From positions 41,933,681-41,997,680 of the forward strand of contig NC_088786.1 in assembly GCF_949628265.1 (NCBI RefSeq): a stretch of DNA of 64,000 nucleotides, read 5' to 3'. The position numbers and the translations under genes are program-made. Below, one piece after another: positions 21,906 through 60,204 of this stretch. Every line of letters starts with the position of its first letter. Position 1 is the first letter of the stretch. The stretch comes from Cloeon dipterum (taxonomy: Eukaryota; Arthropoda; Insecta; Ephemeroptera; Baetidae). The notes below the pieces were generated by a model. The model searched no databases, was not told where the DNA came from, and worked only from the letters and a program-made list of their open reading frames with translations.

Positions 21906-22619
21906 GAATGGCTTAATTAGAATAAAACCAAAAATGTAGCAAAAAATATTTGTTAAGGATCCAAATAGAATGAACCATTCTTTGGCAAGTGGTCTTCAGA
22001 TCTTGATGAAATTCGGCGGAGTTGTTGCCTTAAGGACTTAAGTTTAAATCTAAAATATTGGATCTAAATTAAAAACATTTCCCATTTTACAAGGGTTCAA
22101 AATTTGAGATTTTTGAAAAGGCGATGTTTTCAAAACGGCGATTGGCGATTTGTTACTTGGACTCTGTTATAGTGGTAAACACAAAATAATTTAATTCCCG
22201 AAATGATCTACGCTTAATGCCCAACAACTTTCCTACGATGACCAACTTCGTAGGTCAAAGGTCAAGGTCAGTAACTTGGGGTCAAACTTTCCAAAAAAAT
22301 TCCGCATACCCGCAAGTACAAAAATTTTGTAAATTCTAATTAGCCTCATATCCATGGTAAAAACATATAATATATAAAAAATTGGTGACACTTTTTTTTC
22401 GTTTTCGAGATATTTCGAATTGAGTGTTTAAAGTCGATGTTTTCCGGGTCTTCCGGCCGATTCAAATAAAACATGTTTTCCGCTTCATCTCAGCAAATTT
22501 TTATTTCAGTTTTTTATATCACTCTCAAATATTGGTGAAAGCCATGATCATCATAGAGAAAAGTAAATTTGGATGAAAAGATCAGCTGCTCAGATATCCT
22601 TGAAAATCCAAGGACAATC
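21906..22619. other. Intergenic region B1/B2
   Basis: AT-rich DNA with no supported exon. It contains tracts such as TAGGTCAAAGGTCAAGGTCA near 22250, a possible nuclear-receptor-type AGGTCA direct repeat, but nothing else ties it to regulation. Confidence 0.35.
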
Positions 22620-29269: not shown

Positions 29270-30080
29270 CTTTGAAATGACTCGCTACGCGCTGTCGCGA
29301 GGTTTACATTCACTGTGATATTCTGTTTTACGTTTTTGTTTTTTAGTGGAAATATCGTAAGCAGACGTACGTGTGTTACTAATATTTTTACTCGACTTGC
29401 TTAAACGGGAAATGACGAAAATATATTTTGACCGATCATTAAAAATATGTTTATTTATATTTTGCTCGAGTTAAAAACTTTCAGATGTAAAAAGAACTTG
29501 GAAAAAAAATCAAATCAAATAAGCTTTACTAACTTACTGACACTCACTTTGTAAACTCTGGATGAAACTTTGTTGTCTATGGAAATAATTGGAAGATGCA
29601 AATTTTCACAGTAATTGGATAAATATACCTTCTCATTTATTTGAGATGTGTAAGATGAAAATACCAAATTATCTACAAACTTAAGACGTTCGCACAAATA
29701 GCGATTTCAGACAGAGAGGAATATAAGCGAAAAATTAAAAATTTTAATTATTATTGTTTTAACCATTGTTTTGGTTTTCAATTTGTTATGAATTAAATGA
29801 CAAAATCTAACTAAGATGAAGGAGTGATGCGCTCAATGACCACGACGTCTTGATTCAAAGAGAGACGGATTTTTTAAATCCAAAATAATGCTGGTGCATT
29901 GTATCGTCATGCTTAGTTTTTTTTTAAATATGAGGCGATGAAATTAAAAAAACGCAAGATTTCAATGCAATCCTAAATTTTATTTATAAATTTGTGTTTT
30001 TCATATCATTTTTCTACTGGCCAAACATGATCAGATGATTTTGATGACAAGCTGCTCTCCCTGAAAATCTAATGTCATTC
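29270..30080. other. Intergenic region M13/B3 (B gene 3' flank)
   Basis: Parts of 29520-29950, reversed, match 50820-51140 right of B4 (shared AATCAAGACGTCGTGGTCATTG region). It is the duplicated 3' flank of B-type genes. No coding exon seen. Confidence 0.45.
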
Positions 30081-31880
30081 CTATTCAACATCGTCAATAT
30101 ACTCAAGAGGATGTGTTTCAATGTGATTTTCAACATCAAGTTTTTCAGTTGAGGCGAAGTCACATTTTGGGCAGTAGAATATCTCTCGAGGTGGAACGCC
30201 TCTTTCCTCATTCCTGTGTTTCTTGGCATTCATGTGAGTTTTTACCCAACATTTTTTTACTGAGCAGTAATCATCGCAGTGCGGACATTTATAAAATTTT
30301 CGGACTAATTTGCTCGGCAAACATAAATGTTTCCTTTCAATGTGATATCCCAAAACCCATCTTTTGTCTGAGGAGTAATGGCAATGTGCACAGCGCAGTT
30401 CCTTCCTTTCTCGATGTTCGTTGCGCTCGTGCTCGCGCCTTTCCTCCCATGAGGGGTAAAATTTCCTGCATCCAGGCATTGAGCATTGTTGCAGCCTAGG
30501 ATGACCTTTCTCCTTCAATTGGTGCTCATAAATGTGGCTTTGGTATTGTTCCTTGTTGCATGTAGCTGCTGCACAATAACCACCTCTTGAGTCCAATTTC
30601 TCACTGGTCTGTTTTTCTCCTTTCTTCTTCAAATCTGAGTCAGACTTGGCTTCTTGCGGATCCTGCGCTCTTTTCCTCTTCAAACTTCGGACTCCGCTGC
30701 TATCAGAACCTCCTATTTCAGTTCAATTAAATTAACTTACAGTTATTAATATCACAATAATTACCTTGAGCCTTCTTTTGCTCATCTGCTGATTTGTCAC
30801 TCCGCTCTGGAACTTGACCTTGAATCGAGAGTTGATTCCATCCGTGCGAAGTTCCAGGCATATCATAAGCCACTAAAACAAAATATTGTTAATTTTTATT
30901 GAGTGATTTAACCACAGTAAAAAAGTTCTTCTTACAAGGAGCACTTGTTGTCGATGAGCTGTTGTGGTCAACTCCACGATGATCAAGATATTCGTTTAGA
31001 ATTCCAAACAAATCAGGAATTTCGTGATGCTTTTGAGCAGGAGAGTTTAGTTGCCAGAGTGCTGCTCCCTGACCTTGGTTCATGTCTGCAAGCCTAAGAG
31101 GATGCTCTGCTGGAAAAAAGGAATTATTTAGATCTCAAAGAGCTTTAAAAATGCTAGTATCATGATTAAAAACAACCGGTACCAAAAAGCCATTCAACAC
31201 CCCAAAATATATAAGTGACAATGAAATAACAAATATCTGAAATGATTTACCAGGAATTGGAATGAAAGGTGCGGCGTTATGTGAAGCATATAAGGGTAGG
31301 CCAGTAAAATAATTGAGATCAAAAGTTGGCAGCAGGCTAGGATGGAATTGTCCTTGAGTTTTCTTACAACGTGAAGCACTTGTTGGTGGGAGAACAATTT
31401 CGTCTCCACGATCCATCTTTTGTCTTTTCGGCGTCTTCGATACTCCAAAAGAAGAAGGAGTGTCTTGACCTGATCGTCCATCTTGATGTCTTTTTGACGC
31501 ATTTGAAGGTTCAGGGACATTTCTCAAGGACTGGGTCTGACCTGTTCGAACTGCAACATTAGTTTTCCGTTAGAAAAAATTATGGACATTTGATTAAACA
31601 ATTTGTTTAATGCTTATTCTTGCAGTTAAGATTGATTAGGAAGAGTTAGCAGCCTTAAAAATAGAAGGGTTTAGAAAAAAACATACCCGCCAAATCAAGT
31701 GGGGCGTCGGGTAATGGTGACGCTGGAATTTGCCTCACTTCCTCTACTTCTGACGCTGGACTGAGGTTTTGAGGGTTAAAATCAATGAAAATTCAAAGCT
31801 TATTGAAGATTTTACCTTTGGTGGCCAGTGTCTGAGGTTGAAGCCGGGATTTTACTCGGTATTCCTTTTTTCCGAGCCAT
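30081..31880 (-). CDS. B3: type B five-finger gene
   Basis: Start at 31880 (MARKKGIPSKIPAS). Exons 31816-31880, 31687-31760, 31251-31550, 30936-31109, 30765-30872 and 30081-30712 total 1353 nt: 450 codons plus stop. Exon order and sequence are very close to B1, so the two are recent duplicates. Fingers as in B1, with a CSMPGC..H-x4-H second finger and a PLEYIDDVE end. The usual non-coding exon 1 and CCAAT cassette are not just upstream. Similarity to the B1 upstream DNA stops near 32075 and resumes near 35740, so 3.66 kb of other DNA lie between this gene and its apparent promoter at 35849-36090. Confidence 0.82.
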
Positions 31881-36363: not shown

Positions 36364-38784
36364 ATGTCTCGCTGCAGAGAAATGCCGCCGCAGGGCGAAA
36401 TTTCTGCCTCAGAGGGTCCTGTTCAAAGGTAAGAAATATTCAGCCGATAATTTTCAAATAACTTAATGATTAAACTTCGGAAAAAACAGTTCAGAGTCTG
36501 AAGATGAGGAAGAATGTCAGATTCGAGGAATATCCGAGTTTCAGCAGATGAATGCCCCACAAGTTTCACGTGCGTGTTTAGTTTCTTCTATTTTGTGCTT
36601 AGAATCGATTTCATAAATGCAACATATTTAATTTGAAATTGAATATTTTACTAATAAAATAAACCAATTGCAGTCGGTATAAATCGCAGAGAATCGCAGA
36701 GAAATTACACTGATTTTTCCAATGAATCTCAAGGTCAAGATGGTCGACAGGCTCGAGAAACCTCGTTTTGTCTCCCAGAACGACATTTACCAAAGAGACC
36801 AAGAATAGAGGATCCTGGAGTTGATATTGCACAGGCTACGACAAGTTCTGTTTCTTGTATGAAGAAAGTTTACCTTAAAACTATAAAATATTTGAGATTT
36901 TGTCAAAAACAGGGGCAAATGAAGCGCCTGGATCTTCGCTCGGTTTAAATCGACCGTACGCAGAGCAAGACCAAGCTTCAACTTCAAACCAGGAAGACTT
37001 TCAAACAACATTGGCGAAACTAGAACAATATCACATAAAACTGATTGCTAAAAGTGGGTGTTCCCAGAATCCAACGAGTGGTTTGCAGAATCAGGGTGCA
37101 CCAAGCCCAAATCTTCCCTCTGATGTGCCACATGGTAAAAAAATCAATAAAAAATTCAAATCTATATTTCTTCTGTTCAGCAGTGTATCTAGGAGCTGCA
37201 ACCTCAGCAGAAAGTGCCAGTTCTTCGCAACAAGGTATCTTGTTTAAAAATTTATTCTCATTCATTCAAAATGTCGCAGCAGCTCCTGCTTGCTCAGAAG
37301 CTTCCGGCGTCGGTTTACCAGTACAATCTCACTCAGAGAAGGAAGACTTTAAAACAATATTAGCGAAACTAGAACAATATCACAAAAAATTGATTGCTAA
37401 AAGTGGATGTTCCCAGAATCCAACGAGTAGTTTGCGGAAACAGGATTCACCAAACCCAAATCTTTCCTCTGATGTGCCACATGGTAAAAAAAATCAATAA
37501 AAAAATTCAAATCTCTATTTCTTCTTCTCAGCAGTGTATCTAGGAGCAGCAACCTCAGCAGAAAGTGCCAGTTCTTCGCAACAAGGTATGAATAGATGCC
37601 TGATCTTGTTTAAAAATTTATTCTCATTCATTCAAAATGTCGCAGCAGCTCCTGGTTGCTCAGAAGCTTCCGTCGGTTTACCAGAACAACCTCACTCAGA
37701 GAAGGAAGACTTTAAAACAACATTGGCGAAACTAGAACATTATCACATAAAATTGATTGCTAAAAGTGGATTTTCCCAGAATCTTATTCAGCAACAGAGT
37801 CGTGGACCAATTGAAAGTAGACCCTCTAAAGTGCCACAAGGTAAGAAGAACAAATTCTTTTAAAATCCAACTAACTATGCAATTTTTACCTGCGGCAGTG
37901 TGTCTTGGAGCTACATCCTCAGGAGACAATGTCAGGACACAAGGTAAGAACATCATTGATTGATTACCAAGCCAAAGCAATTAGAACATATTTTATAAAA
38001 TAAAAAATAATAATGACTACAATTTAAAAAAATAGTTCAATGTTATGAGAATACAAAATGCAAGCCAATGGACAGACTTTTATTGATTTTTAAAGCTCTG
38101 AGATGGGAATAATTCTTTTTTTCCCGCAAATCAACCTCTTGGGCTTGCAGCGATGAACCAGGGTCAGGGAGCAGCATGCAGGCAACTGAATTTTCCTGAT
38201 GGAAAGCATCGCGAGATTACTCATTTGTTAGGAATTTTAAACGAATATCTAGATTATCGTGGAAAAGACCATACTAACTCATCGGCAAGAGGAGCTCATT
38301 GTACGATCTTTCATTCTGTACTTAAATTACTGAAAAAAATTAACAATAATTTGTTTTAGTGGCCTATGATATGCCTGGAACTTCGCACGGTTGGAATCAA
38401 CTCTCGATTCAAGGTCAAGTTCCAGAGAGGAGTGACAAATCAGCAGATGAGCATAAGAAGACTCAAGGTAATTATTTTAATTTTAATAACTGTGAGTTAA
38501 TTTAATTGAACTGAAATAGGAGGTTCTGATAGCAGCGGAGTCCGAAGTTTGAAGAGGAAAAGAGCGCAGGATCCGCAAGAAGCCAAATCTGACTCAGACT
38601 TGAAGAAGAAAGGAGATAAACAGACCAGTGAGAAATTGGACCCAAACGGTGGTTATTGTGCAGCAGCTACATGCAACAAGGAACAATACCAAAGCAACAT
38701 TTATGATCACCAATTGAAGGAGAAAGGTCATCCTAGGCTGCAACAATGCTCAATGCCTGGATGCAGGAGATTTTACCCCTCATG
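36364..38784 (+). pseudogene. B4: type B five-finger gene, 5' part (interrupted by transposon)
   Basis: Start at 36364 (MSRCREMPPQ), exon end 36428; then 36490-36569, 36674-36856, 36913-37134, 37181-37234, 37280-37483, 37532-37585, 37646-37840, 37899-37943, 38151-38300, 38360-38467 and 38520-38784. The finger exon stops after FYPS at 38784, where the transposon begins, and continues at 49815. Without the insertion the frame would be 663 codons. Linkers contain an acidic ESEDEEEC exon, an NLS-like LPKRPRIED and three repeated exon pairs (EQYHxKLIAKSG..; VYLGAATS). The exon at 38151 lacks the AG used by its paralogues (CCCG replaces a CAG) and probably uses an AG 24 nt downstream, which keeps frame. 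As it stands, a full-length finger protein would need the 11-kb element to be removed or skipped. Confidence 0.8.
36913..37943 (+). repeat. Tandem exon-pair repeat in B4 (3 units)
   Basis: Each ~370-400-bp unit holds a 195-222-nt exon (EDFxTTLAKLEQYHxKLIAK..) and a 45-54-nt exon (VYLGAATSAESASSSQQ), both phase 1-1, so units can be added or lost without changing frame. B5 has four such units at 56622-57988. Introns are repeated too, showing genomic tandem duplication. Confidence 0.8.
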
Positions 38785-38804
38785 CCCAGCAGAAAATTCT
38801 GAGC
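38785..38804 (+). repeat. Left terminal inverted repeat
   Basis: Twenty bases starting CCCAGCAGAAAAT, directly after the ATG target duplication. Pairs with 49792-49811. Confidence 0.9.
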
Positions 38805-39235
38805 GGCTTTTTGCCGCTCTTTCTTGCTCGCTCATTTACACACGTATTTGGGACATTCTTGCTCTTTCTTGCTCGCAACCTAAGTTCGGTTCCTGGCTCG
38901 TTTCTGCTATTTTTCGCTCAATGCTGCTTTCTGCTGCCCTTGCTGCTCGCTCAAAAACGCTTTTGTTGCTCGCTCATTTAGGCACGTATATGGAACATAT
39001 TGGCTCTTTCTTGCTCGCTAGGATTTTTCTGGCTCATTTGTGCTTTTTATCGCTCAAAGGTGCTTTTATCTGCTCAAGCTACTCGCTCAAAAACGCCTCT
39101 GTTGCTCGCTCATATATAGACACTTTTTTAAACATTGTTGCTCGCAACCTCAGTTCGTTTCTAGGATTATTCTGGCTCATTCATGCTCACAATTGCAGCT
39201 CTGTACTCCCTCCCGTTTGATTCAAATTAGTTTTT
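38805..39235. repeat. Left subterminal repeats
   Basis: Dense copies of TGCTCGCTCA, TTCTTGCTCGC and related GCTC-rich words (for example near 38828, 38868, 38946, 38968, 39010 and 39100). Subterminal motif arrays are typical transposase-binding regions of CACTA elements. The apparent reading frame here is an accident of the repeats. Confidence 0.7.
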
Positions 39236-40411
39236 TTTAATCCCATTTACTGCTGAAACGCGCTAGCACTGACTTGACAGTCAATTCATTTTTATTGCAC
39301 ATTAACGCTTGCATTATTGCAACAATATGAGGAGGCAATAAAAAGCAAAAAGCGTTTACATGCAAGAAATATGCACGCCTTAGCCAGCAAATCACGAGAA
39401 CTGAGGTGGAGAGCAGGAATGTTCCAAATAAATGAGCGATCGAAAATAAAAATGAGCCAGAATGGCTCAAGTATGCATATTTCTTGTTCGTTAATAACTG
39501 CAACCAAAAAAGAGCATGTTTTTTATGCAATAATGGAAGTGGTAATGAGCAAGAAGCAAGAAATATGCTATCTAGCCAAGCCAAGCGCGTTATAACTGAA
39601 CAGGGGATTTAAATTCACTAATACGTTTTTAAGCCTTGTATTAAATTCATAAAAGCTGTGTGTTAATTACATGATCTAAAAAAGCTCATTTTTTTTCTCA
39701 ATAAAAGGAAATGTTTTGCTGCTTTAAAGTTTTTGCCTGTCTTAGGTGTCTTTGCTCTTACAGAAAATTCCAAAATTAATGAACTCATGAAATGCAAACG
39801 AGAAAATAATTAAAGAATAAATTAATTAAAATTATTAAATAAGATTGAGCGATAATATTGCTTAAACATATGAAACAGCTTTGCTTGAAAACCATAAATG
39901 GCAATATTTTGAATAAAATTTGCATTTTTAGGAACCTAAATTGCTGTATTTTATTGATACCGATTTTCAAAATACAAAAATAAACTTTTTGGAGTAACTT
40001 CTCACCTCATAAGCTGCGGATCATTCTGTGTCTGTGTGGCTAGCTAAAAACAAATCAATTGAGATGTACATTAATTTAAAAAAAGTGCAACTCGCGTTTT
40101 CCTGATAAATTTGCCATAGCCTAATCCCAAAAATTAAAAAAAAAACAGGTTCATCTTTGCCATCCAAATAAACCGTCACAGAAACCAGAAACAAAATCAA
40201 TGATATGCATCTATCTCGACGATTCAATGATGATTGGCCGGAAAGTATGATATTTTCGGCATAAAATTTGTTTACGATATTGTATCAAATTAGAAAGGCA
40301 ATTTTTAAAAAATTAATTAATGCGTATTTTAATGTGGTACTATTATTTCTACTTTCATTGAGCAATTCTAGTAATATATAGATTTAAAAGAAAGGATCAC
40401 AATTTAAATAA
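39236..40411. other. Transposon interior, left non-coding part
   Basis: AT-rich DNA between the subterminal repeats and the end of the BEN gene. A ~90-codon plus-strand open frame (39317-39595) contains motif words like those of the subterminal region and has no recognised domain. The BEN gene 3' UTR probably lies near 40000-40400. Confidence 0.4.
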
Positions 40412-43180
40412 TTACTCACCATCATCACAGTCAGCAGTGGGAACAACTTCTGTCAACTGTCGATAGCCATGGCTGGTCCACACACTTGTGTTGGGATTAG
40501 CACGCTGACAAACATTCGAAACGATTCTTCTGGTTGCTGCCATAGTCAGTGGGGTGAGATTGTTCATCTCGCAGTACGCTCTCTGGCTTACTAAAATTAG
40601 AAAAGTTTTGCAAGATTACCTTTATGCTCATATGATTTAATATAATCAATCACCTCACAGAATAAATTCTTTCATGCAGCAAAACAGAAAAATAATAAAC
40701 ACGTAAAATAATAATTATCTTTATTGACTTTTCGGTTTTTTTTAAACTCAAAGCATTTTAAAATTTAAAACTCCTACACGTGATTTAGGATAATAAATGG
40801 CAAATGGTGAAATTTTCAAAGAAAAACTACGTGTTTTGCGCTCTCTCAAACTGTACAACATTAATTTAGCCATCTCAAAATTTCTCAGACCTGAAATTAG
40901 CTGCATATTTTTGCCTAAAAAATCTAACATATAATAACCACAGTGAAAGCAAGCTCTAAAGAATTAAGTATTCAGATAACCAAAAGGAGAAGAGAGAGGC
41001 ACTTACGGAAAATGCACTCAACGAGCTTGCAGTCAAGTGCAAGGAAGTCTCCTCGCTCAGCATTCAGACGGGACCTGCTCAAAATGTCATCTCCAAACAC
41101 GGCCTTTGTCATTTGAGTGACAAATCTCGCAGGACGCTGACTCGTGTACATATCAACCGAAGCGTATCTTCCTCTCAGGAGCACGTAGCCATTGCCGATG
41201 TAGTTCTGTATCATGAAATTTGGGATCAAAATATGATATGAAAACTGAAATTAAAATTGACTTACGTAATTGTTGCACACAATCTGTAGCAAATCAGGTT
41301 CATCGGAAGCAGCTTGCGTTCCTCTCATAGCAGCACTGGACTTAAGGAGCAGGTCAATTTTGCTATCCAGCACGTGAATTAACTGTAGCATTTCCACTGA
41401 GCAGCAACAAGATCGGTCTAAATTTGAGATTTATTATATACATAAAAATAAATAAAAAACAAAACTTCACCTTCACTGGCCAGACTTGGTTTTTTACCCA
41501 CAAACTGAGACGACCTTGATGGTAAAGGGTCAACCTCGTGACTGCTCTCACCTACAAAAATCAATTAAACAGTTGGGTGAATAGCCCTTATTTTGCCCGC
41601 TAACAGATATATATTTATCGCACCTTGAACGACAGCGTCATCCCAATCAGAAAAAAGGCCATCAGATGACCACTCTAAGAATTAAATTTAAGTGCATAAT
41701 ATAAAAAATGATCATTTATAATTTTTACCTCTTTGAATCTGACGCCGTCTTTCTTCGGATGAATGTGTCTCAACTTCACGATGATCTGTGCTGTCAGCAT
41801 CTTCGTCATGCTCCTTCTCAAGCCTGTGACATGTGTAAAATAGAATTACCAATTGAAAAAGCTAAATTTTAATAAATAATTTTATATCATTACATCTTAG
41901 ACGATCCAGCAGTCGACCTGTAATTTCCACGACCTCCGTCCAGCCTCATGGAATCACCGGATTTGGCCAGAGGTCTGCTCCTCTCTTGGGAACTGTGAAT
42001 ATTGACTTTCTGGGTGGTGGTGTCCTTATTAGCAGCTCCAGTCTTAGTCACCGTGTTCGTCTTTGGCGCCCTTTTCTCTTGAGTACTGCATTTCTTGCTC
42101 GCTTTCTTGCTTTCTTTGCCCACATTTTCTTGGGTTGCTCCTGGACCATCAAAAGAGGTGTCGCTATCTTCTCCATCACCGGTTCCTGCTGCTAAACTCT
42201 CAGTAAACTGAACCTTCTCCTTTCCTTTCTCAGGCCTTTCATTTGTAGAAACAAAATTACCAATTGCAAAAATCAAATAATTTGATATCATTACATCTTA
42301 GACGATCCAGCAGTCGGCCTGTTATTTCCACGACCTCCGTCCAGCCTCATGGAACCAGCGGATTTGGCCAGAGGCCTGCTCCTCTCTTGGGAACTGTGAA
42401 TATTGACTTTCTGGGTGGTGGTGTCCTTATTAGCAGCTCCAGTCTTAGTCACAGTGTTCGTCTTTGGCGCCCTTTTCTCTTGAGTACTGCATTTCTTGCT
42501 CGCTTTCTTGCGTTCTTTGCCCAGATTTTCTTGAGTGGCTCCTGGACCATCAAGAGAGGTGTTGTTTTCGTCTTCATCGCTTGGCAAATTCACCTCTTTA
42601 GCTCTTGATATTGCATTTAACAGATCAATTTGCATGTTACTGGTTCCATGCTAGAAATTAATATAATGAAACATGCAACACAATTGATAAAAATATATAG
42701 ATATATTTATATATACCGCTTTTTTCCCCATTTTCTTTGACGGAGATCTCGGTCTATCTTCCTCATCGGCAGTTTCTAAATTTTTGGCAGGCAACCTTCG
42801 GATCCTTTTGGGTCTCTCTCCAGGGAAAACACAGTCAGCGTCAAGTTTCCTCAATTTTTCCATCTCTTGCATTTCACAAAAAGTGCCTAATTTAACAAAT
42901 AATTATTAATAAAAACAAAACTTACTTTAGAGATGGTTAAAAACTAAAAATTACCTGGGCCATGTAAAATCAGAGCTGGTTTTGTTTCAAGCCTGCCACT
43001 TTTATCTTTTCCAGAAATCACGTTGTACTTCTTGGTTCCTTTTTTGGGGGGATCATCCATATTGTTTACTTCGTCAACCAAACAAACTTGCGTTTTTTTC
43101 GACTGGAACCATTCAATAACGACGTAATTACGTCCTTCTTGATTAGCCTTCTCTGGTGAAGGTCGAGATTGGCTCGTCAT
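40412..43180 (-). CDS. BEN-domain protein encoded by the transposon
   Basis: Exons 42955-43180, 42717-42886, 42295-42650, 41894-42235, 41729-41823, 41624-41674, 41471-41551, 41266-41417, 41007-41205 and 40412-40590 give 616 codons plus stop, all in phase (the last exon read to a TAA at 40412; a further 3' exon cannot be excluded). The N-terminal ~75 residues (YVVIEWFQSKKTQVCLVDE) resemble a small beta domain often preceding BEN proteins. The middle is charged and low-complexity with basic runs. The C-terminal half of the frame ends in a BEN-like domain (RFVTQMTKAVFGDDILSRSR..LALDCKLVECIF). Exons 42295-42650 and 41894-42235 share a ~250-bp near-identical core (KKASKKCSTQEKRAPKTNT), an internal duplication. 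BEN domains bind DNA or chromatin proteins; here a role in element regulation is inferred. Confidence 0.75.
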
Positions 43181-43389
43181 GATTAAAAGTTTAACTGGAG
43201 CAACCTATGAATTAGAAATAATTAAAACATATTCATTTACAAATGAAATTGACGAAATAATTAACAAAATTTAAGTATTCATTATTGCTGTTTCTGATTC
43301 TTTTTTGCACTGCTGAGCAAAAACATGCACACAGAATAAAATCAACAAAAATAACAATCCAATTGAGACTTTTGGTCAGAATTCAGTGC

Positions 43390-43925
43390 TTTAATTAAGT
43401 ATGCATATTCATTCATGCATGTAAATGTATGTGCAATATTCATGCAATATTATGTACACATGCACGTGCATTCATTATGTACACATGCATGTACATGCAT
43501 TATGTACATATTTACATGCATGTAAATGCATTATGTACATACATGCAAGTAAATAATGCATTATGTACATGCATGTATGTAAATGCATTATGTAAATACA
43601 TGCACGTAAATGCATTACGTACATACATGCATGTAAATGCATTAATGTACATACATGCACGTAAATGCATTACGTAGATACATGCATGTAAATGCATTAT
43701 GTACATACATGCATGTAAATGCATTATGTACATGCATGTAAATAAATGCAATATGTACATGCATGTATGTGCAATATGCATTTTTTGTGCATATCTATGT
43801 CATTATATAATTATCCATTTACACATGCACAAAGTACATGCATTTACGAAACATGCACAAAGTACATTCATGCATGCATGTTCATGCATTATCATGTGTG
43901 CATGTACATACATTTACACAGTTTA
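43390..43925. repeat. ATGCATGTA-type tandem repeat tract
   Basis: About 530 bp of irregular tandem repeats built from ATGCATGTAAATGC and ATTATGTACATAC words (basic period roughly 26-27 bp), rich in self-complementary TGCATGCA and GTACATGTAC. It lies between the two divergent transposon genes, where a shared promoter would be expected. Long frames of Met, His, Cys and Tyr residues across it are repeat artefacts. Confidence 0.8.
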
Positions 43926-44482
43926 TCTTCAATTATTTACATGTGTGACTTCGCAAATATAACTGCGCGCACTTAAAATTCGGGACATGCATTGACACAA
44001 ACAAAAAATACATAATCAACACTTATTTAGGAACTAACCTTGCTTATTGTGTTTCCAACAAGAGTCGGTAATTTATTATTAAGAAGATGTAGTCCGTTTT
44101 CTTCTACATTCACTGTCACGACTATCTCGTTGTTTTGATCGCAAGAGTGATTTCGGCGAATATTTTAGCCGGAACAGAGTGCGAGACAACAATAATGAAA
44201 TTACCGATCGTGAGGTAAGGAAGCAATGCAGTAGTGTGCGGTCTGCGGTGGCGTCTGGAGACCAAATCGACACTCAACGCTGATTGGCTTCTGTGTGTGC
44301 AACGCTTTGCCCGCTAAATTAATTTACCTAGAAAGCGCGCGCTGGTTGTTCGTGCATTCTGCCTGGGCTTCCATATGAACGAATCTGCGTATGGATTGTT
44401 GTTTTGGTTTTGAGTTTGCCTGTGCATATAGCATATATACTGATCTACATTTTGGTTTCCTTCTGATAATAAAAGGACCAAA

Positions 44483-47400
44483 ATGGATCAACAACTCGAA
44501 AGCAGTGGTTCAGCAGGACCACGAAAAAGGAAGAGTTACCGTGTGTTGCACAGTAATAATAAATTGCCGAGGCAGACAATTTATAACTGGAGGAAGAAAG
44601 CAGCCCAAGCTATGGATCAAGCTTATGCAGAAGAGACCACTAATAACATGTCATCACCGGTAAGTGAAAAAATAATTTTTCATAATTTTCAATGAAAATA
44701 CAAATAATATTATAATGAGAAAATATTCTAATATTTATAATAGGCCTCTGACTGGTATGCAGGAGGAATTTAAAAATTTAATTTGTAAATAAATATTAGT
44801 GATGATTAGTGTGCAATGATTGATGAGTCTGTTGAAATTTTTGGGGTTGTGGTTTTGCAGTAATTATACTTAAAAAAATTATTTTCATTTCACTACTTTA
44901 AAATTTTCAATTAACTTTTTGCAAAATTTAAAAATCTATAAAATTTAGAAAAAAATTAATATGGAACTATCGTGAAGGTAACACAATTTTATTTGGCACA
45001 TTTTAGAATATTATTTGGAATTCCATTTTGTAAAACTACTATGATTGTATTGTTATAAATGTTTGTTTTTCCTTTTGCATTTTTTTACATTATTGTTTTC
45101 AATAATCAGAAAGTGTGCATTTTGAGAAGATCATCACCTGAGAAACAAACAAATAAATTGAATCGAAAATGGTTACAATACATGACTTTTTTGTTCATAT
45201 TTTTTAAATATATTTTAAATCAATGTTTATAAATGATAACAAAAAATGAAAATACCACAGTAAATTTAATATTAATGTGTTTGATAAAAATACAAACAAG
45301 AAAATCAATTTTGAGACGTTAATAATAATAATATATAATTTATTTAAAAAAATTTAAGGGAGATGAATATGACCGTGAGGCAAGTGAAAATGATGAAGAT
45401 TCTCAGACTCGTATAACGCATGATGAAAGAGGAGTTGATAGATGCAGTGACAACGATGACCAACCATCACCAGAAAGCGATGATGGCCATTATGAAGAAG
45501 AGCCTGAATGTGAAGTAATACAGTTGCATTTAATGTTTAAAATTAAGAAGAAAGTATTTATTGTGATGTTTTTCATTATTATTATTTTGCCAAGATGGAA
45601 CGACGAGCTTCTCCCTCCTCCGAGATTGACGCCGATGCTGATGATTTTACAACGACGTCTGTTTCCTCTCTCAATGATTCTGAAGTTGATGAGAGCGACG
45701 TCGACGAGGATAATAGCGACGAAGAAATTAATAATGGGCAGCAAGAGGAGGTACTTTAATAGCTAAATGCTCACCTTTCATCATATTATTTTTGCTTTTA
45801 TGGTACATTTTAAACTGGGAATTTAAACTTTGCTGGGAAAATGCGTCAATTAATATTAATGAATTTTCTTTAATTATAATCTTTAGTTTCTCATAAATTA
45901 TATATTTCCCAAAAATTAAAATTTATGCCATGATTATTATTATTTCAGGAGTCAAATGAGGACTCACTACCAGAGGAATTTGACAAAAACGAGAGTTTCG
46001 CTGCTCCTTTTCTGAAGTTGCCACAGGTCCCCCTTTACCCTCCTGATGGTCCAAGTGTGGCAGATATGACGCTTGTCATTTTATCAATACTCATTAAACA
46101 CAACTCTACTGACTCTTTGAAAACCGAGATTTTCCGCGGACTCAATCTTCTCCTTGGAACTAATGACTTTCCGGACAACCAGTATAAGTTGAAAAAACTT
46201 TACAAAGCAACCAGTGACACAATGGAATGTCATGTTTTTTGCAAGAAGTGCATGAAATATGTGGGATTGAAAGAAGAAAAGTTACTCTGTCCATCATGCA
46301 ATGAGTTGATCAAAAAATCAGAAAAGGAAGAAAATTTCTTCTTTACCGCCAAGCTGAAGAATATTTTGTCATCAACACTTGAGAAGAATAGCGAGAGCTA
46401 TGATGGAAACTTTGCTGAAATGCCATTAGTGAGGGCAGATGGAGAAGAGAAAGTCTTTTCTGATCTCCCAGATGGAAGCATCCACGCTTCGCTTCGTGGA
46501 AAATTCGGACCTTCCATTCATAGTTACAACATTTTCGGGGATGCTGCACCTGCTTTCGAAGCCTCGAAGAAATCCATTTTTGCTCTGATGTTGGCTCCAA
46601 ACTTTATTAAAAAATCGGAGAGGTAAATGTGTATATATATATATGTGGTTGAATGAATATGGCTAAATAAATATGACTAAGTATTTCATTAAATTTTATA
46701 TATATACATATGCAGGCTAATAATAATAGGGCACAACTTTCTGAAAATATAATAATTTAACGACAAAAATACAAATACTCGCAGATCTAGAAGCTGATGG
46801 TCGATTTTCTGCGCAGCAGCTTTATTTAATAAATCTGAATAACTGCTTGATAAATATATTACATGCTTTCGTTTATAAAGTTCTAAATTTAGTAGCTACA
46901 GAAAAATATTATTTGATCCCTCTCTAATTAATAATTAATATATGCAACTCTTTTATTTATTCCCTATCTCTAGGTCTCGAAACGTGAAGCTAGCAGCAAT
47001 CTGGGTGGGCCGAAAAGAGCCTGATATGAATGTTCTTCTACAGCCTTTTGTTAAAGAGGCTAGGTATATTGCTGAAAAAGGAATTCAGTGGACGGACCAC
47101 AACGGAGAAGCGAGAAACTGTAAAATTTTCCCACTCACAGCAGTCGCAGACTCGGTCGCGAGACCCAAGATGATCGGGTCATGCGTACACAATGCTCAAT
47201 TTGGATGCACTTGGTGTTATCACCCCAACGACGCCATTGGGCAGTCGTACAACAGGTACGTAGAAAATGAGAGAACATTAAATATTTTAATATTTAACCA
47301 CTACTTTGTGCATCTCTAGTAAATTCATAAAGCAATTAATATATTTCTATTTTTAAAGCTGCGCGCTTTTCAGTTTTTGACTTTTTGTGGCCCCTCTAGC

Positions 47401-49166
47401 TATTTTATATATATATATAGCGTTGAAATTTATACACCAGTTAATTATTGCTTTTTGCTTCTATTGATTATCATTCATAAATACACGATATTTGCCAGGT
47501 ATACTTTTCGAGAACCATGTGCGCCACTACGCACTAACGTATCCTGGAAAGAGGATTTGGACACTGCCTTAAGCACAGGTGAGCCCTGCAAGGGTGTTCA
47601 AAATGAAAGCGTTCTGCTGGATCTACCAGGGTTTCTCATCCCTGAAAATATTGGAGTTGAGCAGATGCACGCGGGTAAATTACTTATTTAATTATAGAAG
47701 ATTACACTTTTTTAAATTGATATTCTCTTTTTTAGCTGATGTAGGCCACTCAAAAACAGTCCTGAAATTGTGGACAAGCAATTTTCGCCAAGACTACTAC
47801 ATTTACACTCCTGCAAAGCGAATGCTCCTCGACAAAAATATGTCTGAGGTGCGACTGCCGACTCTGAAAAATGCAAGATTGCTCACAAAATTTACAGACT
47901 TTAAATCATGGAAAGCTAGCCAGGCAAAGTTGTGGACTCTTCACTTGAGTGTGCCATTGCTCATTGAGGTACAGAAGCCAAAAGATGTAGCGGTTTGGGC
48001 AAGGTAAATGTTTTTTCTAAAACTTATTTATAATTGCAAATAATTAAATAATACTGTATTTATGCGGCAATCTGCCCAAATACTTAATAATCTTCTAATT
48101 ATATCTACTTAAATTTTTAATTATGCAAGTAAATTTTTTAAATTTTACAAATTAAAATTAATCGAAAATTGTTTTTATCTTCAAAACTCTTATTTAAGTA
48201 GAAAAATGAAATCTCTTCCCTGAAGTTAAAACGTATATCTTTTGTCATTTGATTTTCTCTTAAATATAAATATTTCCAGCCTGTTCTATACTTTCACTTT
48301 ACACCCATCTGTATTATTATATTTACTTGCTTTACAGATTTGTCGCTGCATATTGGCTCCTTAATCAGTCCACGATTACGGAGACTGATCTGATTACTGC
48401 TCAAACCTACCTAGAGGAGCATTCTCAAGGATATGAGACACTCTACGGAACTCTGGTCATGACGTCAAACCTTCATCAGTCTCTTCACTGGCCATTGGCT
48501 GTTGCTCGAATGGGTCCGTTACAAAACTTTTCGGCATACCAGTATGAAGGAAAGTTCCCAGACATCAAAAAAGACATCAGCAGCACGAAAGCTACCGCAC
48601 AACAGGTAATGGAGCGTGCAATCATGAGAGAATCGCTCCCTCACATTGCACAGACAGTGCTCAGGAGGCAACAAACAAAAGAGTACGTTTCCCAACTCTT
48701 AGAAGGCAAATCTACCAAAGTCGGACCACCTGAGACAAGAGGCCCACCAACGTCTGAAGATGCTGAAGGGAAGCACTTCAAGAAAGCACTGTGGTCAGGA
48801 TTTGTCCTTCGAACTTTTGAGAGTCAGAAGGGTACACGCAAATGTGACTCTTGCGTGCAACTGAAAGACAATACATTTGGTATCGTCACAGATGTCATGA
48901 AAATTGTTGAAAACAACAAAGTCAGATTAAAAATTTTATCTTTGAACTGCACGCCACACATCATCAAAAAGTGCACAATTAGGTCGGGCGATCGTGAACT
49001 GAATATGGAAGACCTGAAGCTCCCTCATCTTTATTCAGCAAGTGTGGCGCACCAGCGATTGAGGGTGGTAGATGCCGAAATGGTCAAGGGTGTTTGTATT
49101 TTGATGGAAATGACAAATGGAAAGTTGTATGTTAGTGTTCCACCAAATAATGAAGAGGCCCAGTAA
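44483..49166 (+). CDS. TNP2/CACTA-like transposase
   Basis: Exons 44483-44659, 45359-45514, 45595-45750, 45949-46622, 46974-47255, 47499-47674, 47736-48003 and 48338-49166 join to 905 codons plus stop with every phase matching. The N-terminus has a basic, helix-turn-helix-like stretch (PRQTIYNWRKKA), then acidic exons and a zinc-binding pair region (CHVFCKKCMKYV..CPSC). The core has the TNP2-type order: IWVGRKEPDMNVLLQPFVKE, ADSVARPKMIGSCVHN followed by FGCTWCYHPND, then GVEQMHADVGHSKTVLKLW. The C-terminal part includes TSNLHQSLHWPL and a CDSC motif. Lengths and order fit animal CACTA/EnSpm transposases. Catalytic acidic residues cannot be assigned with certainty by eye. No internal stop or frameshift seen. 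Confidence 0.85.
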
Positions 49167-49319
49167 AAAGCATAATATACAGTTTTATTTATCTATCATT
49201 AATAACCCATCCTCGTTTTGGTCTCATGCATGCATGTTAATCTGAAGCATTCAATTTGATTCGTAAATATAAAACCAAAATAAATCATTGGCGACTGTCT
49301 ATATTTTGGCAAATATTTT

Positions 49320-49791
49320 CGCAAGCCAGTTTAATGAGCGAGAGCGAGCCGAGCGTGAAATGAGCCGAATTTAGCAAGACACTTTCAGCTCGAGCAGTGT
49401 CAGCTGAAAAAAGCAAGTGTTACTCATGAGCAAAAGTGAGCAAGAGCGAGCAGAGCATGAATGAGCAGAAAATTAGCGAGTTCAATTAAGCTCGAGCAGG
49501 TTGAGCTGAAAAAAGCAAGGGTTGCTCATGAGCAAAAGTGAGCAAGAGCGAGCAGAGCGGAAATGAGCCAGAAAAAACGAGCAATTTACGCTCTTTTTTA
49601 ATACAAGCCGCTCGAGCAAGAAAAAACAAGAATTGCTCGCGAGCAATTTCTGCTCTTTTTTGATGCGAGCCGCTCGAGCAAGAAAAACCAAGAATTGCTC
49701 GCGAGCGATTTTAGCGATGAGCGAGCTGAGCATGAAAAATGCCTAAAAAAGCAACTCGAGCAAGAATGAGCAGCCTTGCTCGCTCATTAAT
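49320..49791. repeat. Right subterminal repeats
   Basis: Inverse counterpart of the left array: GAGCGAGC, TGAGCAAAAGTGAGCAAGAG and GCTCGAGCA words, including a ~107-bp unit repeated in tandem across about 49330-49560. Not coding. Confidence 0.7.
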
Positions 49792-49811
49792 GCTCAAGAT
49801 TTTCTGCTGGG
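49792..49811 (-). repeat. Right terminal inverted repeat
   Basis: Ends ..TTTTCTGCTGGG at 49811 and is followed by the second ATG copy (49812-49814). Differs from the left repeat at two positions (TTCTGAGC versus TCTTGAGC region). Confidence 0.9.
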
Positions 49812-49814
49812 ATG

Positions 49815-50181
49815 GGAGGAAAGGCGCGAGCACGAGCGCAACGAACATCGAGAAAGGAAGGCACTTCGCTGTGCACATTGCCATTACTCCTCAGACAGAA
49901 GACGGGATTTGGGAGAACACATTGAAAGGAAACATTTTTGTTTGCCGAGCAAATTAGTACGAAAATTTTATAAATGTCCGCACTGCGATGATTTCTGCTC
50001 AGTAGATAAATCTAAGTTAAAAAAACACATGAATACCAAGCAACACAGGAATGAGGAAAGAGGCGTTCCACCTCGACAGATATTCTGCTGTCCAAAATGT
50101 GACTTCACCTCAATTGAAAAACTGGATGTTGAAAATCACATTGAAACACATCCTCTTGAGTATATTGACGATGATGAATAG
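49815..50181 (+). pseudogene. B4: 3' part of the finger exon after the transposon
   Basis: Resumes with WEERREHERNEHRERKALRC and continues through CAHC..H, CPHC..H and CPKC..H-x3-H to PLEYIDDDE and TAG. Together with 38520-38784 it totals 632 nt, exactly the B3 exon length, with no added lesion. The unbroken frame on both sides indicates recent insertion. On its own this fragment has no start or splice acceptor of the family type. Confidence 0.85.
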
Positions 50182-51203
50182 GAATGACAATTGATTTTCA
50201 ATGGGAGCAATATGTCATCAAAATCGTCTGATTATGTTTGGCCAATAGAAAAATTGATTCGATGAACAAAAATTTAGAAATAAAATTTAGGATTGCATTG
50301 AAATCTTACGTTTTTATGTATCCTAAAATGCCTCAAATTTATGGAAAATACAGCAAAAATTTGAATATGCAATAATTTCAACTTTATTTGATATTTCAAC
50401 TTAAATTTTTAATTACAAGCATGAATAGTACGCTATGACATTTGTGCAGAATTGGAAGAATGGTTTATTAAAAATAAACTTTAATAATTTTTATTTAATT
50501 CCTTGAACACAGAAGAGTTTACCTTTATTTTGCTAAGGGCTCATTTAATCCAGTTCTGCCCTTTCCTAATCTGCAACAATACGTATACATTCGCAAGTTT
50601 TTCCTGTTCGAGAACATTAAAATATTATTGTCTCACCAAAAAAATATTCCCATTATAGATTAAGTAAGTCCAGCAAAAATACGACCTTCGCACCAAAGTA
50701 TCGATTAATTTCAATTCAAATTAAAACGAAGCATTCTCCATGCATTATATGTATTTCAAATTTAAAAAAATGTATGAAAAAACTTAGAAGAACGATAAAA
50801 TTCAGCAGCACCATTTTGGATTCCAAAAGTGCGACTCTCATTGAATCAAGACGTCGTGGTCATTGCGCGCATCACTTCATCTTCTTAGTTAGATTTTGCC
50901 ATTTAATTCATAAATAAATAAATAATTTGGGATTTTCATCTTCAACATCTCAAATAAATAAGAAAGTATTTATGCAATTACTGTGATGCTTCTTTTTCCT
51001 TGAGGTTTTGCTTTTTAAAATAATTTTCATAGACAACAAAGTAGCATTCAGAGTTTACTACACGTAGTGAGTTTGAGTGTCAAATAAATAAGCTTTGATT
51101 TCAAGATTTTTTTATTTTTTCCGAGTTCGTTTAACATCTGAAAGTTTGTAACTGGAGCGAAATCTGCTTTGTATATAGTTGCTATATGTATTTGAAACAA
51201 TTT
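50182..51203. other. B4 3' flank / A6 upstream region
   Basis: 50190-50780 resembles the B5 3' flank (59210-59740), including GGATTGCATTGAAATC. 50820-51140 is the inverse of 29500-29950. No exon seen. Confidence 0.5.
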
Positions 51204-56073: not shown

Positions 56074-59000
56074 ATGTCTCGCTGCAGAGAAATGCCGCCG
56101 AAGAGCGAAATTTCTGCCTCAGAGGGTCCTGTTCAAAGGTAAGAAATATTCAGCCGATAAGTTTCAAACAACTTACCGATTAAATTTCGGAAAAAACAGT
56201 TCAGAGTCTGAAGATGAGGAAGAATGTCAGATTCGAGGAATATCCGAGTTTCAGCAGATGAAGGCCACAGAAGTTTCACGTACGTTTTTAGTTTCTTCTA
56301 TTTTGTGCTTAGAATAGATCTCATAAATGCAACGTATTTAATTTGAAAATGAATATTTTACTAATCAAATAAACAATTGCAGTCGGTATGAATCACAGAG
56401 AATCGCAGAGAAATTCGCCTGATTTTTCCAATGAATCTCAAGGTCAAGATGGTCGACAGGCTCGAGAAACCTCGTTTTGTCTCCCAGAACGGCATTTACC
56501 AAAAAGACCAAGAATAGAGGATCCTGGAGTTGATATTGCACAGGCTACGACAAGTTCTGTTTCTTGTATGAAGAAAGTTAACCTTTAAACTATAAAATAT
56601 TTGAGATTTTGTCAAAAACAGGGGCCAATGAAGCGCCTGGATCTTCGCTCGGTTTAAATCGACCGTACGCAGAGCAAGATCAAGCTTCAACTTCAAACCA
56701 GGAAGACTTTAAAACAACATTGGCAAAACTAGAACAATATCACAAAAAATTGATTGCTAAAAGTGGACGATCCCAGAATCCAACGAGTGGTTTGCAGAAA
56801 CAGGGTGCACCAAGCCCAAATCTTTCCTCTGAAGTGTCACATGGTAAAAAAAATTAACAAAAAATTCAAATCTCTATATTTTCTTCTCAGCAGTGAATCT
56901 AGGAGCTACAACCTCAGAGGAAAGTTCCAGTTCTTCGCAACAAGGTATGAATAGATGCCTGATCTTTTATAAAAATTTATTCTCATCATTCAGCAGCTCC
57001 TGGTTGCTCAGAAGCTTCCATCGGTTTACCAGAACAACCTCGCTCAGAGAAGGAAGACTTTAAAACAACATTAGCGAAACTAGTACAATGTCACAAAAAA
57101 TTGATTGCTAAAAGTGGATGTTCCCAGAATCCAACAAGCAGTTTGCAGATTCAGGATGCATCAAACCCAAATCTTCCCTCTGATGTGCCACATGGTAAAA
57201 AAATATCAATAAAAAATTCAAATCTTTATTTCTTCTGTTCAGCAGTGTATCTAGGAGTTGCAACCTCAGCAGAAAGTGCCAGTTCTTCGCAACAAGGTAT
57301 CTTGTTGAAAAATTTATTCTCATTCACTCAAAATGTCGCAGCAGCTCCTGGTTGCTCAGAAGCTTCCGGCGTCGGTTTACCAGAACAACCTCACTCAGAG
57401 AAGGAAGACTTTAAAACAACATTACCGAAACTAGAACAATATCACAAAAAATTGATTGCTAAAAGTGGATGTTCCCAGAATCCAACAAGTAGTTTGCAGA
57501 TTCAGGATGCATCAAACCCAAATCTTTCCTCTGATGTGCCACATGGTAAAAAAATCAAAAAAAAAATTCAAATCTCTATTTCTTCTTTTCGTCAGCAGAG
57601 AATCTAGGAGCTGCAACCTCAGAAGAAAGTGCCAGTTCTTCGCAACAAGGTATGAATAGATGCCTGATCTTGTTTAAAAATTTATTCTCATTCATTCAGC
57701 AGCTCCTGGTTGCTCAGAAGCTTCCGTCGGTTTACCAGAACAACCTAGCTCAGAGAAGGAAGACTTTAAAACAACATTAGCGAAACTAGAACAATATCAC
57801 AAAAAATTGATTGCTAAAAGTGGACGTTCCCAGAATCTGATTCAGCAACAGAGTCGTGGACCAATTGAAAGTCTACCCTCTGAAGTGCCACAAGGTAAGA
57901 AGAACAAATTCTTTAAACTAACTATGCAATTTTTACCTGGTAGTGTGTCTTGGAGCTACATCCTCAGGAGACAATGTCAGGACACGAGGTAAGAACCTCA
58001 TTGATTGATTACCAAGCCAAAACAATTAGAGCATATTTGCAAAAATAATAAAAATAACTCCACAATCTAAAAAAATGGCTCAATATTATGAGAATACAAA
58101 ATGCAAGCCAATGGGCAGGCTGATATTGATTTTTAAAGCTCATTGAGATAAGAATAATTCTTTTTTTCCAGTAAAGCAACATTTTGGGCTCGCAGCTATG
58201 AACCAGGGTCAGGGAGCAGCATGCAGGCAACAGAACTTTCCTGATGGAAAGCATCGCGAAATTCCTGATTCGTTTGGAATTCTAAACAAATATCTGGATC
58301 AACGTGGAAAAGACCATACTAACTCATCGACAAGAGGAGCTCCTTGTAAGAAGATCTTTCATTCTGTACCTAAATTAGAGAAAAAAAGATTAACAAAATT
58401 TTGTTTTAGTGGCCTATGATATGCCTGGAACTTCGCACGAATGGAATCATCCCTCGATTTTAGGTCAGGTTCCAGAGCGGAGTGACAAATCAGCAGATGA
58501 GCAAAAGAAGGCTCAAGGTAATTATTGTGATTTTAATAAACGTAAGTTAATTTAATTGAACTGAAATAGGAGGTTCTGATAGCAGCGGAGTCCGAAGTTT
58601 GAAGAGGAAAAGAGCGCAGGATCCGCAAGAAGCCAAATCTGACTCAGACTTGAAGAAGAAAGGAGATAAACAGACCAGTGAGAAATTGGACCGAAGAGGT
58701 GGTTATTGTCCAGCAGATACATGCAACAGGGAACAATACCAAAGCCACATTTATGAGCACCAATTGAAGAAAGGTCATCCTAGGCTGCAAAAATGCTCAA
58801 TGAAAGGATGTAGGTATTTTTACCCCTCATGGGAGGAAAGGCGCGAGCACGAGCGCAACGAACATCGAGAAAGGATGAAATTTCGCTGTGCACATTGCCA
58901 TCAGTCCTCAAGCAAAAAAATATTTTTGAGACAACACATTGAAGGGAAACATTTATGTTTGCAGAGCAAATTAGTCCGAAAATTTTATAAATGTCCGCAC

Positions 59001-59204
59001 TGCGATGATTTCCGCTCAGTAATTAAATCTAATGTAAAAACTCACATGAATACCAAGAAACACAGTAATGAGGAAAGGGGCGTTCCACCTCTAGAGAAAT
59101 TCTACTGCCCAAAATGTGACTTCACGTCAACTGAAAAACTGGATGTTGAAAATCACATTGAAACACATCCTCTTGAGTATATTGACGATGATGAATTGGA
59201 ATGA
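56074..59204 (+). CDS. B5: type B five-finger gene with four-unit exon repeat
   Basis: Exons 56074-56138, 56200-56279, 56383-56565, 56622-56843, 56891-56944, 56994-57194, 57243-57296, 57342-57545, 57596-57649, 57700-57894, 57944-57988, 58172-58345, 58410-58517 and 58570-59204 total 2274 nt: 757 codons plus stop, all phases consistent. Order: MSRCREMPPK start, acidic ESEDEEEC exon, NLS-like LPKRPRIED, four EQYHKKLIAKSG/VYLGAATS exon pairs, the MNQGQ and MPGTSHEWN exons, then fingers YCPADTC, CSMKGC..H-x4-H, CAHC..H, CPHC..H and CPKC..H-x3-H, and a PLEYIDDDELE end. This is the longest intact member. Coiled or helical repeats in the middle could mediate protein contacts (inference). Confidence 0.85.
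56622..57988 (+). repeat. Tandem exon-pair repeat in B5 (4 units)
   Basis: Same module as in B4 but one unit more. Unit boundaries fall in introns, and the intron sequences (for example CTGATCTTGTTTAAAAATTT) repeat too. Units 2 and 3 differ in whether AAAATGTCGCAG precedes the acceptor, showing unequal origin. Confidence 0.8.
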
Positions 59205-60204
59205 CAATTGATTTTCAATGGGAACCATTTGTCATCAAAATCTTCTGATCATTTTTGGCGAATAGAAAAATATGTAAAATACAAATTGAGAAATAAAATT
59301 TAGGATTGCATTGAAATCATCTTCTTTTTATGTATCTTAAAATGCTTCAAAATTTATGGAAAAAAGAGCATAAATTTTAATATGCAATAATTTTAACTTT
59401 ATTTGATATTTAAACTGAAAAGTTTAATTTATAGCTTGAATAGTACGTAATGACAAATGTGCAGAATTGGAAGAATTGTTTATTTAACATTAAACTTTAT
59501 TATTAATTTTTATTTGATCCTTGAATATAGAATAGTTTGCCTTTAATTTGCTAAGGGCTCATTTAATCCAGTTCTGCGTGTCCTGCCCTAAACTGCACCA
59601 ATACGTGTACATTAAGTAAGTCAACAAAAATACGACCTTGACACCAAAGTAACGACTAATTTTAATTCAAATTAAAACGAAGCATTCTCCATGCATTATG
59701 TATTTCAAATTTAAAAAAACGTATGAAAAAACTAAAAAGAAAGACCAGCCCGTTGGCTCGCATTGTTCAGCGGCACTCTCAGGAGTGTCAAAGCAATGGG
59801 AAGGTATTTGAGCAGTTCGGAGATCTAATACTGGCTACCCAATTCGTCAGAGATGGCAAAAAGTTGTTAGTTCAGTGACTCGAAATGCTCGAATTGCTCA
59901 ACGGGCTGCTTTGCACCTTTCCAGCATGCGCTTCACGGGACGAATGTCTAGCGTTTCAATGCAGTCCTCGGTGCGGAGGCAAGTGGCCCTTGAGTGGGCT
60001 GGGTCCCTGCGTGCGGCCTGGTGCGCCCATGTTATCCGTTCGCGGTGTTATTCGCACTCGGAATTCAGCATTCGTGCCAGTGCAGTGCGCGCTCTTCCCG
60101 GTCCTCGGACAGAGATAAAAAGAGCAAAAAAAACAACTAAATAAGTGCGAAGTGGAAATTTTAATATTTATTGTCTTGGCAACCATTTAATAATATATTT
60201 CCAG
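59205..60204. other. B5 3' flank and a GC-rich segment
   Basis: 59210-59735 matches the B4 3' flank. From about 59740 the similarity ends and a GC-richer stretch to ~60120 follows, with overlapping open frames on both strands and no recognised domain. It may be a captured fragment of another gene. Confidence 0.4.

Follow-up and report, generated by a model that had tools for sequence, protein, structure and literature searches.

The stretch of DNA considered here is a 64,000-nucleotide window of the genome of the mayfly Cloeon dipterum (C1:41933681-41997680 in a 190-Mb, 10-contig assembly, which was also the genome searched). Between window positions 38785 and 49811 lies an 11,027-bp transposon, which carries a transposase gene and a second, divergently transcribed gene (Table 1). 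A preliminary description of this DNA had proposed an intact CACTA-like element with a transposase gene and a BEN-domain gene in just such a divergent arrangement, and the orientation of the two genes (transposase on the + strand, second gene on the - strand) is as it stated. The terminal inverted repeats, 20 bp in length, are both CCC ends (CCCAG). Repeats are thus present at both ends of the element, but to call them "matching" was slightly generous, as 18 of the 20 positions are identical. No further match to an end with three or fewer mismatches is present in the window, where the mean chance expectation is 0.07. The ATG target-site duplication (TSD) that had been claimed is found on both sides of the element, and so is the empty site: when the flanks are joined with a single ATG, they align across the junction to five paralogues within the window. 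The junction, which was displayed letter by letter in two of these paralogues only, is exact in both.

Searches of the genome with the 20-mer ends and with the transposase protein, whose counts are lower bounds, detect at least 10 perfect matches to the 20-mer end pattern. These include at least four inward-facing pairs, which coincide with the four near-identical transposase loci. The four full copies found, on contigs C1, C2, C4, and C5, are 99.86-99.93% identical to one another in ungapped columns, each is flanked by a 3-bp TSD (within the 2-3 bp expected of CACTA elements), and each carries both genes between the same ends. Besides a few smaller gaps, their lengths differ by an extra 398-bp tandem exon unit (C2 and C4) and a 1808-bp insertion (C4). 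The 24 ungapped variable columns, three in transposase exons, three in second-gene exons, and 18 elsewhere, are too few for selection to be tested. The transposase frame is open in three of the four copies and is lost in the C4 copy, where the 1808-bp insertion lies near the end of the gene; the second gene is open in all four, including the C4 copy with its broken transposase. Thus, the transposon family is recently mobile and the element autonomous-looking, and the description of it as CACTA-like, intact, and recent is supported by the ends, the TSDs, the empty site, the near-identical copies, and the catalytic signature discussed below. Given their near-identity, the four copies are not independent and are counted as one lineage. 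Genome-wide, end matches with three or fewer mismatches number 286+166 versus 35+55 for a reversed control, and additional copies with diverged ends may exist. The ends of the 1808-bp insertion itself read TAGTGCTTTGCGCGGG, with GTATGTTA as its 8-bp duplication; it looks like a non-autonomous hAT-type element, the family name being a guess.

Six lone ends that carry the 20-mer pattern (L048-L053) were also examined. Two of these, L048 and L049, are similar at 76-78% over ~170-205 bp and have no tblastn match to either gene within 7 kb, while L050 has no similarity outside the 20-mer. L051 and L053 (positions 1958-5020 of each) contain a 3063-bp relative that has no coding similarity; these two copies are 99.97% identical to each other, are flanked by the 3-bp TSDs TTT (L051) and AAA (L053), and have the inner end sequence ATCGCGAGC. 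A third, related copy is present in L052 (from position 2001). This non-coding relative is probably mobilised by a related transposase.

The 905-codon transposase gene is open, as had been claimed, only once its eight exons are spliced. Its product contains the residues D, D, C(2)C, H(3)H, E, which are invariant across six aligned transposases; D, D, C(2)C, H(3-4)H, E is the signature of the EnSpm-Mirage-Chapaev-Transib (CMC) group [PMC12730594]. The best Pfam family for the protein is Transposase_21 (PF02992; E=0.002, 17.8 bits), which falls below the cut-off of 28.6 bits. A search of the genome with PF02992 gave no match and is uninformative, since the control genomes gave none either. A transposase profile found three weak matches in the PDB, the best of them a RING finger (E=0.025), and a weak RING-like stretch of cysteines precedes the catalytic part, at residues ~247-280 (Pfam zf-C3HC4_2, E=0.0063).

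Because of its CCC ends and CMC signature, the element is filed as a TRC-like member of the animal CACTA elements. The literature used for comparison consists of open-licence PMC papers, in the form of titles, the starts of abstracts, and some passages. Passages in two of these propose a CCC core for the ends of animal TRC elements, which belong to the CACTA superfamily [PMC1636069, PMC4298943]. The TRC elements (SmTRC1 of Schistosoma, the Aedes and Tribolium copies, and Spongebob/EnSpm-4N1 of Hydra) share this core, and their transposase is of the Transposase_21 type, the best-matching though sub-cut-off family for the window transposase. CCCAG ends occur in the Aedes (CCCAGTCAAC) and Hydra (CCCAGCCAACATTGAC) members [PMC1636069, PMC4298943], as in CCCAGCAGAAAATTCTGAGC of the window element. 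In contrast, the ends of plant-type CACTA elements begin with CACTA. The TSD also differs, in that 2-bp duplications are reported for TRC elements (7 of 14 SmTRC1 copies, given as a reported trait) whereas the window family has 3 bp in all four copies. For SmTRC1, the passages available describe further proteins produced by alternative splicing, one of them encoded in a second frame of a transcript, and mention no separate divergent gene [PMC1636069, PMC4298943].

Subterminal repeats are a typical feature of CACTA elements, and in maize Spm they are dense and in inverted orientation. In the window element, both ends are similarly filled with short repeats, GCTC and GCTCGC on the left and GAGC and GCGAGC on the right (Table 1). 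The GCTC and GAGC counts were reached by none of 5000 single-letter shuffles at either end. Two palindromes, GCTCGCGAGC (two copies) and GCTCGAGC (four copies), are confined within the window to the right subterminal region. The repeats are inverted between the left and right ends, as expected for repeats that are bound by an end-pairing protein. Another set of short repeats, rich in ATGCAT, lies between the divergent genes, a stretch that is perhaps a promoter region.

The second gene had been described as an open frame of 616 codons. This frame is indeed open after the splicing of 10 exons, and the NCBI proteins P0002 and P0003 imply an 11th exon (40021-40043) that extends the product to 621 residues. 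NCBI names two isoforms, one of which lacks 17 residues. The length of the protein also varies among the copies, 621 residues in C1 and C5 and 734 in C2 and C4, as a result of the number of tandem exon units (two versus three). Protein searches, which were word-limited and in one case scored only the 8000 candidates with the most shared words, recovered only the copies of the element and P0006, a protein from another Cloeon record, with no separate host orthologue. P0006 is 53% identical to the second protein over 53% of its length and 73% identical to its C-terminal stretch over 64%. The preliminary description held that its proposal would fall if same-end copies consistently lacked the second gene or if orthologues sat at unrelated single-copy loci. 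Within the limits of these word-limited searches and of copies that are not independent, neither was seen, and the two genes do co-occur between the same ends in the other copies. P0006, P0008, P0009, and P0010, from another Cloeon dipterum record, are relatives of the two proteins at 52-88% identity. No transposase of such similarity is among the matches listed in this assembly, whose counts are lower bounds; consequently, the two Cloeon records may differ in their element families.

Table 1. Features of the window transposon, its full copies, and the companions of distant tnp2-like genes (window positions unless a contig is named)
Feature	Position	Strand	Details
Left terminal inverted repeat	38785-38804	+	CCCAGCAGAAAATTCTGAGC
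Right terminal inverted repeat	49792-49811	-	CCCAGCAGAAAATCTTGAGC (reverse complement)
TSD, left	38782-38784	.	ATG
TSD, right	49812-49814	.	ATG
Empty-site paralogue	30847-30053		93.8%; junction exact letter by letter
Empty-site paralogue	20065-19279		91.9%; junction exact letter by letter
Empty-site paralogue	58435-59231		90.5%; 3 gapped letters in 800
Empty-site paralogue	15778-15043		77.6%
Empty-site paralogue	23330-22600		74.9%
Left subterminal region	38785-39560	.	24 GCTC; GCTCGC 9.0 per kb vs ~0.2 in element interior and rest of window
Right subterminal region	49320-49811	.	31 GAGC; GCGAGC 14.2 per kb vs 0-0.2 elsewhere
ATGCAT-rich short repeats	43400-43930	.	Between the divergent genes; mostly ~27-bp spacing
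Transposase gene	44483-49166	+	8 GT-AG exons, 905 aa
Transposase exons	44483-44659, 45359-45514, 45595-45750, 45949-46622, 46974-47255, 47499-47674, 47736-48003, 48338-49166	+	
Transposase motifs (residue start)			DAAPAF 361, ADSVARP 446, GCTWC 465, NLHQSLHWP 674, YEGKFP 699
Second gene	40021-43180	-	11 exons, 621 aa
Second-gene exons	43180-42955, 42886-42717, 42650-42295, 42235-41894, 41823-41729, 41674-41624, 41551-41471, 41417-41266, 41205-41007, 40590-40420, 40043-40021	-	
Exons for C-terminal region	40420-41205	-	~Residues 492-610; BEN-like by eye, score marginal only
Exon-containing tandem duplication	41874-42574	-	2 units (41874-42173, 42275-42574; 94%); 3 units in C2 and C4
Full copy C1 (window)			11,027 bp; TSD ATG
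Full copy C2			11,451 bp; TSD CAT
Full copy C4 (L044/L045)	Within C4:31305009-31318263		13,255 bp; TSD ATA
Full copy C5			11,101 bp; TSD TTA
L054 companion			N-terminal module + DUF4806, 22.0 bits, best family, below cut-off 25
L055 companion			N module 41% identical to L054's, E=8e-14; DUF4806 14.9 bits, best family, below cut-off 25
L060 companion			DUF4806 29.5 bits, above cut-off 25; N module reached by 0/1000 shuffles when left out
L061 companion			N module E=6e-4, C region E=7e-4 (own companion profile)
L063+L064 companion			N module E=3e-8, C region E=1e-3; ~4.8 kb after transposase

By eye, the insertion locus resembles an array of C2H2 zinc-finger genes (15043-15778, 19279-20065, 22600-23330, 30053-30847, 38385-38784 plus 49812-50214, and 58435-59231). 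The transposon interrupts one C2H2-like member (38385-38784/49812-50214), and close paralogues retain the uninterrupted site. Scans against Rfam gave no match.

The reading favored here, with moderate confidence, is that this is a recent, autonomous-looking CACTA element of the TRC type whose second protein would help transposition by binding DNA at the subterminal repeats and probably belongs to the BEN superfamily. The model for such a role is the second protein of maize Spm/En, which likewise has two products, the transposase TNPD and the second protein TNPA. TNPA helps TNPD and also acts on its promoter; the two are spliced from one transcription unit [PMC1636069], whereas the window element has two divergent genes. 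By analogy, the second protein may coat the subterminal repeats sequence-specifically, may aid the transposase in the pairing and cutting of the ends, and may tune the transposase promoter. A precedent for a BEN-like fold that reads a transposon end is DBD1 of the Tn3 transposase [PMC9579193].

Whether the second protein is a BEN protein at all is the least secure part of this reading, and the BEN label of the preliminary description was not confirmed: no Pfam family matches the protein up to E=10, BEN (PF10523) included, and profiles built for the purpose are marginal at best. By eye, the residue pattern of its C-terminal 100 residues is like that of BANP, BEND6, and RE55538p (presumably Insensitive), yet no profile match to these BEN proteins is significant. 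Six BEN segments, three taken from PDB chains and three from native Cloeon exons, were built into a profile on which the second protein scores 1.0 bits, a value that 63 of 2000 shuffles reach (30 of 729 scored shuffles in a smaller set). True BEN segments, in leave-one-out controls, score 22-56 bits. Smaller BEN profiles were no kinder, since the score was reached by 212 of 775 scored shuffles with the three PDB segments alone and by 31 of 749 with another, and a joint BEN + DUF4806 profile was reached by 393 of 2000. HMMER and hhalign gave no signal against the three BEN segments (hhalign Probab 0.10). A PDB search with the C-terminal region returned a ribonuclease as its sole match (E=0.53), a search with a second-protein profile returned none up to E=10, and the AlphaFold2 model (mean pLDDT 31) is unusable for the question of a BEN fold. 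In the genome, a Pfam BEN search listed three places, none within a copy of this element. Together these results weigh against a BEN assignment, and there is a substantial chance, if short of an even one, that the protein belongs to another, unnamed family and resembles BEN by accident. Two observations pull the other way. P0006 scores 3.7 bits on the six-segment profile, a value reached by only 2 of 2000 shuffles (though by 500 of 2000 on the joint profile), and the second protein has its parts in an order (an N-terminal module, then a disordered-looking stretch, a short helix, and a C-terminal region) that resembles, by eye only, that of the DUF4806 companions described below. Membership in an unnamed family overlaps with the other alternatives and is compatible with a binding role. 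Since there is no Pfam match, the profiles are marginal, and the structural model is of low confidence, BEN identity is possible, on evidence that is marginal at best.

The right end of the element holds AAATCTTG, which shares 7 of 8 letters with AAATCTCG, the optimum site of BANP [PMC10206803], and GCTCGCGAGC is present twice. That the second protein might read a BANP-like site is a post hoc lead only.

Additional information about second genes comes from other transposases of the same genome. At least eight distant tnp2-like loci are present, with transposases 23-27% identical to that of the window, and six were examined. In five (L054, L055, L060, L061, and L063+L064) a companion gene lies downstream of the transposase gene and in the same orientation. 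The L054 transposase gives Pfam matches to Transposase_21 (E=0.0014) and DUF1258 (E=0.0011) and the L055 transposase to DUF1258 only (E=4e-7), all below the cut-offs; the transposases of the other five loci examined resemble that of L054 at 28-44%. The five pairs combine a related transposase with a companion in which an N-terminal module is followed by a DUF4806-like region at the C terminus (Table 1). Three companions (L054, L055, and L060) were scanned with Pfam, of which one, L060, passes the DUF4806 cut-off; L061 and L063 match a profile built from the companions themselves. The L054 pair lies inside a 10,478-bp element (C4:32400411-32410888; L058, L054, L059) that, like the window element, has CCC ends and subterminal repeats. 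Its ends are perfect 21-bp repeats, CCCTACGAGAAAAATCACGTG, with a 2-bp TSD, TG, as in the TRC reports; in 20 single-letter shuffles of the stretch, no pair of ends agreed at 14 of 14 positions and also had a duplication. CACG occurs 15 and 9 times in its 600-bp ends versus 0.97 times per 600 bp inside. A search of the genome with DUF4806 gave two weak matches, the L054 companion and C2:37012319; among the tnp2-like matches listed, the one closest to the latter is ~61 kb away. Candidate ends for L055 (263-9343; 12 of 14, TSD AG) are weak and were not counted.

These pairs suggest that animal CACTA-type transposons regularly carry a helper as their second gene. DUF4806 is classed among the subtypes of BEN in a paper that relies on Pan et al. 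2023 and is a second-hand source for the link [PMC11075544]. A bolder proposal, which is advanced only tentatively, is that BEN and DUF4806 proteins fill the place of TNPA in animals, as the products of an old and general second gene of CCC-ended CACTA elements; they would read the subterminal repeats and build the transposition complex. Several results do not favor a common second protein. At L062+L065 no companion was found in the stretch examined. Element ends of L060, L061, L063+L064, and L062+L065 were not found in the examined stretches, leaving ends known for one of the six loci. The BEN profile singles out the L063 companion (1 of 2000 shuffles) but not the other four (154-1070 of 2000). 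Conversely, the companion profile singles out BANP, L039, and L040 among the BEN segments (6, 4, and 8 of 2000) but not Insensitive, BEND6, or L041 (108, 537, and 1530 of 2000). Consequently, these short profiles back the link between BEN and DUF4806 in part only. The window second protein has no DUF4806 match with Pfam or with these profiles. Its similarity to the companion profiles was reached by 127 (N module) and 121 (C region) of 1000 shuffles, and that to the five-companion profile by 227 of 2000, so that homology is unsupported. Finally, the genes are divergent in the window element and tandem at the distant loci. The earlier suggestion of a possibly undescribed two-gene element is strengthened by the companions found next to the distant tnp2-like genes.

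If the second protein does bind DNA, it need not take part in cutting. It could instead bind the element or the host chromatin to affect expression or an escape from silencing, a role that is considered rather unlikely here. BEN transcription factors recruit chromatin-modifying factors [PMC10206803], silencing escape has been proposed for TET/JBP genes on unrelated fungal transposons [PMC12730594], and TNPA likewise acts on its promoter [PMC1636069]. The repeat-rich stretch between the divergent genes would also suit such a regulator. Yet the strongest repeats are subterminal and inverted between the ends, a placement that fits end recognition better than regulation.

CACTA elements capture gene pieces, and the second gene could be a passenger, a host gene that was captured once and rides along with no role in transposition. 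The near-identity of the copies, which makes them a single event, the lack of demonstrable homology to the other tnp2-like companions, and an orientation unlike theirs would all be explained in this way. However, a full multi-exon gene is intact in every copy, P0006 provides a relative in another Cloeon record, the protein searches, word-limited and in one case capped at 8000 candidates, revealed no separate host orthologue, and other tnp2-like genes of the genome have companions too; a passenger is thus improbable. A segmental duplication of two host genes with no transposon involved, which four near-identical copies alone would fit, is refuted by copies that stop exactly at the same inverted repeats, by their differing 3-bp duplications, and by the existence of an empty site.

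Within the open-licence papers listed, as far as their titles, abstract starts, and passages go, animal CACTA elements have so far been described mainly through their transposase, and BEN or DUF4806 proteins are not tied to CACTA or tnp2 elements. Repbase and subscription papers lie outside this scope, and a precedent in them is possible. If a second protein does recur beside animal CACTA transposases, the two-protein logic of Spm would become testable in animals, and the window element, being recently mobile with intact genes and defined ends, is suited to such a test. A recurring second protein could also be the origin of DUF4806 gene expansions. Passages in the cited papers report 69 and 54 DUF4806 genes in two Hydra species versus 0-6 in five other cnidarians [PMC7642931], and four DUF4806 genes in one block of zebrafish chromosome 4 [PMC11075544]. 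Were the tentative equation of BEN and DUF4806 proteins with TNPA to prove true, the expanded DUF4806 families of animals would for the most part belong to transposons, and some of the BEN regulators of hosts may be domesticated transposon genes.

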